The notes below the pieces were generated by a model, which saw only the letters and a list, made by a program, of their open reading frames with translations, had not been told where the DNA came from and did no database searches. DNA of 29,371 nucleotides from a virus. Below, piece by piece: positions 7,908-24,137 of this stretch; position 1 is the stretch's first letter; every line of letters starts with the position of its first letter. A program made the position numbers and the translations under genes. The stretch covers positions 1 to 29,371 of IMG/VR virus record IMGVR_UViG_3300042288_000232; one strand, 5' to 3'.

Positions 7908-8395
7908 TACATGCTCCCCCTAGACATCAAACCCTGCTTAGGCATGGTAGTATTGATCATAGGTTCATTATAAGGTTCATAGGACTCTATATTTTGCATA
8001 GCATCTTTAACTACAGACCTAGCTACACTACGAGGTACACGTTTCTCTTTCTCTATATTCTTATAGGATTCTACATATTCAGTGTCTGTTGCATCTGCTA
8101 CGTACATTAATAGTTCACGAACAATAGGATTCACTAAGAATGCTACATCGAGCGTATGAATGCCATTCATGACACTAGAAGTAGTCACTATATCTGCCAA
8201 TGTTTCAATGTCTATCTTTTCTTCAAGGGCAGTTATAATGTAATCAGATACTTCTTCGTCAAGTAATCTTTCTGTATAGTATTTAAATGCCTCTTCGACA
8301 GTGTTAAGTTGAGATGGATTTTCCCAGGGTACATTCCTAGGTTGACCTGTTAGTGACATGCCAGGGACAGCACCTTGTAGAAACTTAGTATCCAT
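7907..8395 (-). CDS. Virion structural protein, 162 aa
   Basis: The ATG at 8395 is preferred over an upstream in-frame TTG at 8401; a GGAG lies about 12 nt upstream, inside the end of the 73-residue gene. The N-terminus PGMSLTGQPRNVPWENPSQ is Pro-rich. It is followed by a helical domain with EEVSDYIITALEEKIDIETL and a GIHTLDVAFLVNPIVRELL block. This arrangement recalls a structural protein I associate with marine cyanophage and podovirus virions, from memory. The C-terminal 45 residues are charged and flexible. Transcribed and probably translated together with the 73- and 437-residue genes. Exact location in the particle is unknown. Confidence 0.7.
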   Translation of the reverse strand: MDTKFLQGAVPGMSLTGQPRNVPWENPSQLNTVEEAFKYYTERLLDEEVSDYIITALEEKIDIETLADIVTTSSVMNGIHTLDVAFLVNPIVRELLMYVADATDTEYVESYKNIEKEKRVPRSVARSVVKDAMQNIESYEPYNEPMINTTMPKQGLMSRGSM

Positions 8396-8401
8396 GATCA
8401 A

Positions 8402-8623
8402 TTACTCCGCTACTTTGTCTTTAAGGGACATTCTCATCATACGTATGTCATGCACATAATCAGCAATACGCCCCATCATGTCATCATCTGTGGGCATGTC
8501 TTTGGTAGGTTTTACTGGTACACTTTTAGAGGTCTTAGCAAGTAAGCCTTTTCCTGTAGGTTTGCTATGGGAGTTCATACGCTCAGCTACAAGCTTTTCA
8601 ATTTTAGTAATATATTTATTCAT
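8402..8623 (-). CDS. Hypothetical basic protein, 73 aa
   Basis: The start is set by AGG about 7 nt upstream of the ATG at 8623. The first 20 residues form a basic helix (KYITKIEKLVAERMNSH). The middle is a flexible Lys/Pro/Ser linker (VPVKPTKDMPTDDD), and the end is another helix (RIADYVHDIRMMRMSL). It lies between the 1103- and 162-residue virion genes with 3-nt and 6-nt gaps. It could be a small virion component or chaperone of its large neighbour. Nothing diagnostic is present. Confidence 0.65.
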   Translation of the reverse strand: MNKYITKIEKLVAERMNSHSKPTGKGLLAKTSKSVPVKPTKDMPTDDDMMGRIADYVHDIRMMRMSLKDKVAE

Positions 8624-21443: not shown

Positions 21444-22514
21444 TTAAGCTGCGTTATATTTAGCGGTTACAATTGCTTCTGGCCTCAAAATTTTTCTGCC
21501 ATACAAGTGCATACCACGTACAATGTCAGCAAAACTGTCAGGGTCACGATAGTTTTCAGTCTTGGTAATTTGCTGTGCAGTAGCAACAGCAGCTTCATGA
21601 CCTGCTACAATAACACCGTAGTTGCTGTTCTGGTTAGCAGTACCTGTAGTACCTGGGCCAGTGCCAATCTTGGGAAGGTTGTTAGAAACATAAACACGGA
21701 AACCGTGAAGGTTGTTAATAACAAGACCATTTTGAAGACCAGAACCACCAAAGTCACTGTTCAATAGGCGACTATCTTCGTCTTTAAGCAATTCAATAAA
21801 GACGGGATCGACAACCAACCAACGACCTGTGGTATCAACAAACTGCTGATCTAGCAAACGACCCATACGTGCAATAACCATTAAAGGTGATGCAGTTGCA
21901 GTGGGAAGTGCAGTTGCGCCAGGAAGACGAGCAGCAAGAGGAATGGAATGATCACCTGCAGATGCAGTGGTAATATTACCAAAGCTATCTTTACGGAGCT
22001 TCATCGAAGTAAGCAATTCATCTGAACCTGCAGTTGAAACAGCCTTAGTGCCAGGAGCAGTTGTACGTGCAGTGTCAGCATTGACATGCTTAGCTGATTG
22101 ATAGAAGCCTGCAAGGTAGCCAAGAACGTCTTGATCATACTGGTCACGCAAGCGATATGCTGCACGATCAGATGCCATAGACATGAAGTTTACATGACTG
22201 TGAGCAGCTTCAATGTCATCAATCTTAAATGCAAAGTAGTTTGCTTGATCAACGACAAGGGTGAAGTCTTCGTCATCAAGATCTTGTGCCGTGATTTGTG
22301 TGCCACGAGCATAAGATTGAACAGAAACTTCAGGCTCTTTGATGATCTTAACCGAATCACCCATGTTAGCGATCTCACCGAAGTAGTCGCTGTTAGTGAT
22401 ATCTTCTACGGTTGAAGATTTACGGAATGCAAGTTGTACCTGTTTGCTGTAAATGACAGCTGAGAAATTGCCATTTGGCAGGTTGTTGTAATTCGGGGCT
22501 TTAGGAAAAGCCAT
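21444..22514 (-). CDS. Major capsid (coat) protein, 356 aa
   Basis: The start MAFPKAPNYNNLPNGNFSAV follows an ideal TAGGAGG site (22522-22528), as expected for the most abundant virion protein. Typical coat motifs of P22 gp5-like HK97-fold proteins are visible: GDSVKIIKEPEVSVQSYARG near residues 52-71, then QDLDDEDFTLVVDQANYFAF, and a spine-helix region with DRAAYRLRDQYDQDVLGYLA near 115-135. Later blocks are TGRWLVVDPVFIELLKDEDS and GFRVYVSNNLPKIG, ending in a P-domain-like IVRGMHLYGRKILRPEAIVT. It assembles with the scaffold encoded upstream, though here an HNH gene separates the two. Confidence 0.92.
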   Translation of the reverse strand: MAFPKAPNYNNLPNGNFSAVIYSKQVQLAFRKSSTVEDITNSDYFGEIANMGDSVKIIKEPEVSVQSYARGTQITAQDLDDEDFTLVVDQANYFAFKIDDIEAAHSHVNFMSMASDRAAYRLRDQYDQDVLGYLAGFYQSAKHVNADTARTTAPGTKAVSTAGSDELLTSMKLRKDSFGNITTASAGDHSIPLAARLPGATALPTATASPLMVIARMGRLLDQQFVDTTGRWLVVDPVFIELLKDEDSRLLNSDFGGSGLQNGLVINNLHGFRVYVSNNLPKIGTGPGTTGTANQNSNYGVIVAGHEAAVATAQQITKTENYRDPDSFADIVRGMHLYGRKILRPEAIVTAKYNAA

Positions 22515-22575
22515 GATTTATCCTCCTAAGATAAATGAATAAGTATATAAATACGCTTAAACATTCACTACAGAG

Positions 22576-22597
22576 GCTGTCAATATTGAGTGCGAAA
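22576..22597 (-). promoter_or_regulatory. Weak promoter candidate upstream of the coat gene
   Basis: On the minus strand a TTGACA between the HNH stop and the coat start is followed after 16 bp by TTTAAG, which matches only four of six -10 positions. It could add coat transcription but is much weaker than the promoters at 23230 and 24255. The box given covers the -35 surroundings. Confidence 0.25.
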
Positions 22598-22598
22598 G

Positions 22599-23147
22599 TT
22601 ATCGGGTCAATATATTTTCAGGTAAGTCTGATAGTCTATTGTTTTGCGCCACAAGATGACACAAAGAAATGAACACATGTTCTGTATATTCTTGTTTCAT
22701 CTTATTGATAGCAGCACAGACTAATTGGATATTATCCTTGTGATAGCCTTTACTACTATCGATTCGGTCTAGGCTTATCGTATTAAACTGGTTGGCTACG
22801 GCTACTAGCGGCAGTTTTGTATAAGCACAAAGACCTTGCTGCACTTCAAAAACATCTAGTAAGTCTTCATTGACTAAACTAAATTCTTTATTTCGATTCT
22901 TTGCTTTAGTGCAAAGATTCTTTAACCTTGAATCTATATCTCTAGTATATTTTGGTATGTAACTTTTTCGGGCTACAGACACTCTCTTTTTTATCGTGTT
23001 TTCATTTTTCAAGTAGTACTCGTGTCCAACAATGCAAGCACATGGCTTACATATACCACGAACCCCAAACTTCTTATGTTTATCTTTATGAAACTCTGTC
23101 AGTGGCTTTTCAATGCCACACTTACGGCAACACTTTACCTGTTCCAT
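22599..23147 (-). CDS. Free-standing HNH homing-type endonuclease, 182 aa
   Basis: Residues 7-36 form a four-cysteine zinc ribbon (C7-x2-C10 and C33-x2-C36). A basic linker follows (IKKRVSVARKSYIPKYTRDI). The HNH core is at about 105-145: CAYTKLPL, then TISLDRIDSSKGYHKDNIQL with D127, D130 and N139 in the expected places. The protein would bind and nick or cut DNA near its insertion site in phages lacking it. The gene interrupts the usual scaffold-coat adjacency and has no structural role of its own. It carries its own promoter and a structured leader. A GGAG at -5 from the ATG is embedded in that structure. Some cases of this family act on packaging, but a mobile intergenic element is the simplest reading. 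Confidence 0.85.
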   Translation of the reverse strand: MEQVKCCRKCGIEKPLTEFHKDKHKKFGVRGICKPCACIVGHEYYLKNENTIKKRVSVARKSYIPKYTRDIDSRLKNLCTKAKNRNKEFSLVNEDLLDVFEVQQGLCAYTKLPLVAVANQFNTISLDRIDSSKGYHKDNIQLVCAAINKMKQEYTEHVFISLCHLVAQNNRLSDLPENILTR

Positions 23148-23199
23148 TTTATCTCCGACAAGAAAATGGGCTAGCTAATGTGTCGGCATTAGCAGGGGA
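23145..23199 (-). promoter_or_regulatory. Predicted pseudoknot hiding the HNH gene's ribosome-binding site
   Basis: On the minus strand GCTAATG (23193-23187 complement) and CATTAGC form a perfect 7-bp hairpin whose whole 6-nt loop is CCGACA. Thirteen nt further on lies TGTCGG, the exact complement of the loop, which runs directly into the GGAG Shine-Dalgarno 5 nt before the ATG. Stem 1 of 7 bp, stem 2 of 5-6 bp and a 13-nt third loop give feasible H-type geometry. Closing stem 2 would block ribosome binding. Confidence 0.6.
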
Positions 23200-23229
23200 G
23201 CTACCCTCTTCGCCCGTTACTTTGCTCTT

Positions 23230-23258
23230 GTTATATTGACTTAATTTAAATTTGTCAA
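23230..23258 (-). promoter_or_regulatory. Sigma70-type promoter for HNH and capsid genes
   Basis: Read on the minus strand, TTGACA (23258-23253) and TATAAC (23235-23230) are separated by 17 bp, the optimal distance. The start would be near 23222, giving a leader of about 75 nt before the HNH ATG. The region from the -35 box through the spacer is an imperfect 23-bp inverted repeat (TTGAC...GTCAA flanking an AT-rich centre), which might also be a protein-binding site. Confidence 0.65.
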
Positions 23259-23270
23259 GTTACTATGATA

Positions 23271-24137
23271 CTAACGTGCGTGACCTGACTTATCATACAC
23301 AAATTTACCAGAACGTATAGCAGCAATAATGAGATCTTGTTTCTTCTCATACTCAGCTGCTGACATGCGCTCTACATCAGATTCATAAAATACGTCATTG
23401 TTTCTTTCACTAGGCTGTGATCGTTTAGAACCCATCACTGAACGTGCAGCATCCTTATATGTATCCTTCTTACGACTACCTGCAATGCCCATATCAGCTT
23501 TGTACAGATCAATAGCACGTGCAGCTGAAATAGCGTCTGTTTCGTTGTCGTATAAAGCTTGTTGCACCCACTTGGGCTGCTTATCTACCCACTCATGGAA
23601 TTCATCCTGCTCTCTGATTTCATCAAAGTCGGGATGTAACTTCATAAGCTGTGCTTCAGCTTTCTTCTTTTCAGCTTCCTCTGCCATCTGATTAATCTTA
23701 TGAACACGGGATTCAAGTTCAGCAGACTGTTCTCGTGCTTTTTTAATGGCAATAGTTTCAACAATCTTTGCTACGTCTGGATACTCACTAACCCATGCCT
23801 CTAATTCTTCTTCACTTTTGGGTAGCTTAATCTGTTCTTTTGTAGATGATTCTAGTTGTGCCTGTAGTTCATCGATCTTCTTTTGTAGATCTAGTTGTTG
23901 TTTTTGTGAGTGTCTACGTAGATCGCCATAACGCTTTTTAAAGCTACGTTCCTCTGCACTTTCAGGTACAACACCGTCATCATCTTCTGCATCTTCAGAT
24001 TCAATATTTTTCTTATTATCTGAAGTATCAAGCATCTGCTTTAACTCTTCTTCTTCTTGTTTTATTTTTTCATGATTTGCATTACGTTTAATGAAACCTG
24101 CTACTTTTACGTGTTCAATTTGTTGTTGCTCAGACAT
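23271..24137 (-). CDS. Capsid scaffolding protein, 288 aa
   Basis: A highly charged helical protein, rich in Glu, Lys and Gln, with predicted coiled coils at about 15-40 and 75-100 (KQQLDLQKKIDELQAQLESS) and again at about 125-165 (KKAREQSAELESRVHKINQM). It has an acidic stretch (EDAEDDDG) and a basic C-terminus with VYDKSGHAR. These are the usual features of phage scaffolds that hold coat subunits during procapsid assembly and then leave. Its position between portal-side genes and coat supports the call. The ATG at 24137 has AGAGG 5-6 nt upstream. A promoter at 24255-24284 precedes it. No protease motif was seen. Confidence 0.85.
   Translation of the reverse strand: MSEQQQIEHVKVAGFIKRNANHEKIKQEEEELKQMLDTSDNKKNIESEDAEDDDGVVPESAEERSFKKRYGDLRRHSQKQQLDLQKKIDELQAQLESSTKEQIKLPKSEEELEAWVSEYPDVAKIVETIAIKKAREQSAELESRVHKINQMAEEAEKKKAEAQLMKLHPDFDEIREQDEFHEWVDKQPKWVQQALYDNETDAISAARAIDLYKADMGIAGSRKKDTYKDAARSVMGSKRSQPSERNNDVFYESDVERMSAAEYEKKQDLIIAAIRSGKFVYDKSGHAR

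Follow-up and report, generated by a model that had tools for sequence, protein, structure and literature searches.

T4 I-TevI is an established case of a Shine-Dalgarno (SD) sequence sequestered by RNA structure, the same has been shown for Aeh1 mobE (PMC2988022, PMC3014915), and a pseudoknot in the 5' leader of T4 gene 32 acts in translational control of that phage mRNA (PMC3014915; PMC535899). The first-pass annotation of the DNA studied here had named I-TevI and gene 32 as precedents, and these papers bear it out on both. In the T4-type systems (I-TevI, I-TevII, I-TevIII, segB and Aeh1 mobE) mRNA structure on a co-transcript covers the SD of a phage homing endonuclease gene; the structures are described as hairpins, and in T4 a late promoter is so positioned that short transcripts avoid them. 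The gene 32 pseudoknot is the binding site of an autogenous repressor, gp32. The translational riboswitches SAM-II and preQ1 combine a compact conserved core with a pseudoknot loop that pairs with the SD, and HEARO/OMEGA RNAs are structured RNAs of mobile elements that adjoin an HNH nuclease gene.

The leader described here very probably represents a previously unregistered family of cis-regulatory RNAs, its fold deduced from sequence comparison, that would repress translation of phage homing-type endonucleases through SD sequestration. It is like the T4-type systems in placing mRNA structure over the SD of a co-transcribed homing endonuclease gene, but it is one conserved junction-pseudoknot RNA spread across unrelated nuclease families, and in the window (the whole 29,371-nt stretch analysed, the 29-kb virus record IMGVR_UViG_3300042288_000232) the promoter includes the entire leader. 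Because unrelated proteins share it, autorepression by the encoded protein is unlikely, unlike the case of gp32. It has the core and loop layout of SAM-II and preQ1 but no association with metabolic genes, and it differs from HEARO/OMEGA RNAs in being much shorter, in pairing with the SD of its own mRNA and in being common to nucleases of other folds. No family in Rfam 15 (gathering and E-value thresholds) matches the leader, the only matches being tRNA and tmRNA elsewhere in the relatives. Nor was any description of it found in the literature searched, structured-RNA surveys included, coverage of which is incomplete, in agreement with the earlier opinion that such a leader was undescribed. 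Ribosome-site sequestration in phage homing endonucleases is already known; a junction-pseudoknot RNA family shared across nuclease folds appears to be new.

The endonuclease leader and its surroundings

The window carries, on its minus strand, a free-standing HNH/EndoVII-type endonuclease ORF of 182 aa (22599..23147), identified by PHROG 1035 (E=6e-35) and other HNH families; sequence search gave no Pfam match and no PDB relative. As first annotated, it sits between scaffold and coat: a scaffold-like gene lies upstream (23271..24137, minus strand; PHROG 13678, for which PHROG gives no function, and a position adjoining coat) and the major coat protein gene downstream (21444..22514, minus strand; Phage_capsid_4, PHROG 267), the latter with its own SD, AGGAGG, at 22522..22527 on the same strand. 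In Podoviridae sp. ctYwJ313 (MW202701.1), too, an HNH gene separates the coat gene from the upstream gene, and its leader has the loop pair CCTACT/AGTAGG. Among 80 coat-gene relatives fetched for comparison, a few have an HNH gene at this place, some of them with other loop pairs (CCGATT/AATCGG, CCAATT/AATTGG, CCAATC/GATTGG). The gene thus has two marks of a homing endonuclease gene, namely similarity to HNH/EndoVII-type nucleases and presence or absence at the same site in close relatives, most coat relatives being without it. By Rfam search it does not lie in a group I intron, there being no intron family match in the window or in 16 relatives.

The near-consensus promoter proposed earlier is present on the minus strand, with TTGACA (23253..23258) and TATAAC (23230..23235) separated by 17 nt. 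Relatives conserve both elements ahead of their coat leader; a consensus promoter scan missed the pair because the -10 ends in C. Since this conserved promoter lies just upstream of the leader, the coat transcript must run through the HNH gene. Its position also bears on gating by promoter choice, established for I-TevI and with similar arrangements for segB and mobE (PMC2988022), in which transcripts that start inside the leader and lack its 5' half are translated and long ones are not. The sole promoter seen in the window is upstream of the whole structure, so that its transcript contains all of the leader, and no internal late promoter that would skip an inhibitory 5' arm was seen in the window. 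I therefore consider gating of this kind unlikely here.

The leader spans 23215-23155, all of it on the minus strand, and its core is a three-way junction of helices P1, P2 and P3 with a loop-SD pseudoknot. Read 5' to 3', it opens with the P1 strand GGGC (23212..23215), which covaries with GCCC and is replaced by GAGC/GCTC or CCGC/GCGG in other leaders, and continues through J1/2, GAA (23209..23211), into the P2 hairpin GAGGG-UAGCU-CCCCU (23194..23208), which has a conserved A.C mismatch and compensatory variants elsewhere (AAGAG/CTCTT, AGAGG/CCTTT, AAGGT/ACCCT, GGGG/CCCC). P3 follows, a 7-bp hairpin of GCTAATG (23187..23193) and CATTAGC (23174..23180) around the 6-nt anti-SD loop L3, CCGACA (23181..23186). 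J3/1, UA (23172..23173), then leads to the P1 3' strand GCCC (23168..23171) and the linker AUUUUCU. The exact complement of the loop, TGTCGG (23155..23160), lies 13 nt after the P3 hairpin and is continuous with the SD GGAG (23153..23156), beyond which AUAAA precedes the HNH start codon at 23147. The first-pass annotation had recognised the hairpin, loop, complement and spacing, all of which hold on the minus strand; its picture of a lone hairpin falls short, as P1, P2 and with them the three-way junction had been missed.

Judged from the window sequence alone, the loop-SD pairing is weak evidence. The strand shows no gain in folding over shuffles (z -0.85), and its minimum free energy structure differs from the pseudoknot fold: single-sequence folding prefers a CCATTTT/AAAATGG pairing that closes both SD and AUG, with letters specific to the window's clade. 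The eight closest relatives have an identical leader core and hence are uninformative on covariation.

Covariation across the leader family

To reach beyond these relatives, viral contigs were scanned with the invariant core GCGAARAGGGTAGCTCCCC, which is confined to P1/P2 and leaves out the P3 loop, the SD and any protein, and 91 stretches were recovered. In relaxed scans this core pattern was extended by the TAG(C) of J3/1-P1'. Structure parsing of the stretches from the core scan and the first relaxed scan gave 61 distinct leaders with 30 different loops, 59 of which have a run of 5-7 bp between loop and SD, usually involving the entire 6-nt loop. Two looser scans added 13 further leaders chosen by P1/P2/P3 alone, with the pseudoknot not looked at, and all 13 have it; chance matches to the loose patterns were removed by the P1/P2/P3 criteria. 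Together the sets comprise 74 distinct leaders and 32 different loop sequences, with 5-7 bp of predicted loop-SD pairing in 72/74; in every one of these 72 the pseudoknot strand has nucleotides in common with the purine-rich SD run, in 71 at least 2 nt. Many leaders come from related phages, so these sequence counts are not counts of events. Elsewhere, a scan of genome contigs gave one match (a Fermentibacteria MAG), and BLAST of short leaders against named phages one clear match, Escherichia phage EP_H11 (OP688485.1), in which the element occupies 22495-22573.

Covariation was scored on 47 equal-length sequences from which the unpaired linker had been removed. The pseudoknot is paired in 99.3% of cases, with double-sided changes at 6/6 pairs; the corresponding values are 98.2% and 6/7 for P3 and 93.2% and 3/5 for P1. 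P2 is paired in only 80.4%, because of the conserved A.C mismatch, which other members replace by an A-U or G-U pair. The covariation score is 0.517, against 0.172 for shuffled and at most 0.129 for slid partners. Alignment A3 was anchored on the best downstream complement, a bias toward the pseudoknot that is countered by the independently chosen leaders and by a swapped-partner test on the 30 distinct loops, in which the mean pairing score was 5.9 for true partners and 3.5 +/- 0.16 for swapped ones. Covariation across the family shows the predicted leader structure. The first-pass annotation had staked its pseudoknot on compensatory changes in the leaders of related phages; they are present, and they support its view that the pairing could close the HNH ribosome site on the coat transcript. 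A 6-nt match within tens of nucleotides is not rare in any one sequence, but chance complementarity, or a repeat at the DNA level, is refuted by covariation that is family-wide and includes G-U pairs, and its probability is negligible.

Comparison of the leaders gives no support to a further proposal of the first-pass annotation, that a competing pairing, GGGTAGCT/AGCTAGCCC, lets the leader switch. The complementary letters are present in the window, with a one-base bulge, but most other leaders allow no more than 4-5 pairs there (ungapped, bulges not being counted), and P1 and P2 covary separately. This pairing is not conserved, and a switch built on it is very improbable.

The unpaired GAA, UAGCU and UA are invariant in alignment A3, GAA also in A4, so that the leader has both a highly conserved aptamer-like core and, in its SD-pairing loop, an expression platform, the layout of a translational riboswitch. 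These positions are more constrained, across unrelated gene families, than a static clamp would seem to need, and they leave room for a ligand or factor: the junction (GAA, UA and the P2 loop) may bind a metabolite, an ion or a host factor, and such binding would either stabilise the pseudoknot or release it, nuclease translation then tracking a physiological signal during infection. Against this, the P2 loop changes in divergent members (UUGCU, UCGCU, UUGAU, UUGCA and one 8-nt loop) and so is not an absolute requirement, and there is neither a ligand-linked gene set nor an Rfam match; a responsive element of this sort is a possibility that I hold only tentatively. The alternative is a fold that always lowers translation of a toxic co-transcribed nuclease, with no regulation, conservation then reflecting folding and the joint spread of leader and gene. 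Loop-SD pairing is complete in nearly all members, the leader often begins 7-45 nt past the upstream stop codon, and in T4 the accepted view is that genes of this kind are restrained (PMC2988022). Constant damping nevertheless leaves near-invariant junction nucleotides unexplained while every helix varies freely; it is a serious candidate, though I stop just short of calling it probable.

Genes behind the leader

Nearly every gene downstream encodes a homing-type endonuclease, and the families are unrelated: EndoVII/HNH types, HNH_3+AP2, GIY-YIG+NUMOD3, HNH_repeat, MUG113/T5orf172 and PDDEXK_5 (PD-(D/E)XK). Weak or no family matches were obtained behind L138, L214 (GIY-YIG E=0.026, below the cut-off) and the truncated L183. 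The capsid-operon setting of the first-pass annotation holds in the window, but the element is not specific to that operon, as it recurs upstream of unrelated endonucleases in the coat leader, at the border between tail tube and portal, downstream of a DNA polymerase gene, beside helicase and primase genes and in tRNA clusters. A single 114-kb contig (IMGVR_UViG_3300043464_001836) has six copies, L245-L250, before six endonuclease genes. Behind each of these leaders is a related HNH gene with an HVDHI(V/I)PL(Q) motif at its end, and the P2 loops are UAGCU, UUGCU, UCGCU and UUGAU. The 14-kb viral contig of L187, which has an S21-like gene and, behind a leader, an HNH_repeat endonuclease gene, also encodes a permuted tmRNA of alphaproteobacterial type (8181-8481).

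RNA and nuclease are nonetheless not strictly bound to each other. L314 (4590-4670, minus strand) is a good member of the RNA family with a phage replication protein behind it, so an endonuclease is not an obligatory partner of the RNA; conversely, six weaker named HNH homologues are without the element, so RNA and gene family are separable and the RNA does not simply come along with the gene family. The two leaders that have no pseudoknot, L101 (2871-2917) and L150 (2088-2132), lie in the midst of tRNA genes and are followed by no endonuclease ORF, as would be expected of a pseudoknot that is retained only as long as it has a start site to close. A similar CTGG..CTCAACCAG hairpin stands ahead of both orphan elements.

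The coat leader and a proposed role for the RNA

The untranslated coat leader in SU10-like phages (the window, L024, L030, L032, L034, L040, L044, L047 and L252) is itself a structured RNA. In the window its 5' half has been replaced by the HNH gene, whose end falls inside the 3' half: the 3' domain (22553..22649, minus strand), delimited in alignment A5 with HNH-less relatives, begins with 51 nt that are also the last ~17 codons and the stop of the HNH ORF. Its fold comprises an ACGC/GCGU closing helix and a UUAGCC-hairpin-CACCUAA stem, with double-sided changes at 16/21 consensus pairs, and it has no Rfam match. Upstream of the coat start at 2389 in L051, an HNH-less coat leader contains a GATAGGGTAGCTCTCTATC hairpin similar to P2 of the endonuclease leader and perhaps a remnant.

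The position of the pseudoknot on the SD, together with the T4 precedents, leads me to infer translational repression. The family layout, about 60 nt long, would fold as P1, GAA, P2 (mostly with a UAGCU loop), P3 and UA, the P3 loop pairing 6 bp with the SD-containing strand, and the folded leader would keep the 30S subunit off the start site. In sequence the family consensus reads GCGAARAGGGUAGCUCCCCU-P3-UAGC. The co-transcribed homing-type endonuclease would then be made rarely or only under some condition, and in the window a strong coat transcript could pass the HNH gene with little nuclease made. Furthermore, the closed HNH SD may keep ribosomes out of the coat-leader RNA, with which the HNH gene overlaps at its end. 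In I-TevI, unrestrained translation into an overlapping RNA structure harms its folding (PMC2988022), and by analogy that logic could apply to the coat leader.

The purpose of the repression, and the existence of a releasing signal, are a further step of inference. One version, possible though I would not call it probable, is that the RNA is a true sensor (a riboswitch or host-factor-responsive element) captured as a shared module by unrelated phage homing-type endonucleases, and occasionally by a replication gene, with nuclease translation released by a common infection-stage signal. The leader is accordingly a defined RNA to probe for a ligand. It is also a putative compact natural SD clamp, the specificity of its 6-nt loop reprogrammed by covariation, and its sequence offers an easy way of picking out restrained nucleases of mobile type in phage genomes.

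To persist in phages, selfish nuclease genes have to hold their own expression down. In T4 each example has a hairpin of its own, whereas here one fold stands before HNH, GIY-YIG, PD-(D/E)XK and other nucleases, which suggests that the control RNA was acquired or kept independently of the enzyme. Phages thus appear to share one RNA device that restrains these selfish nuclease genes.
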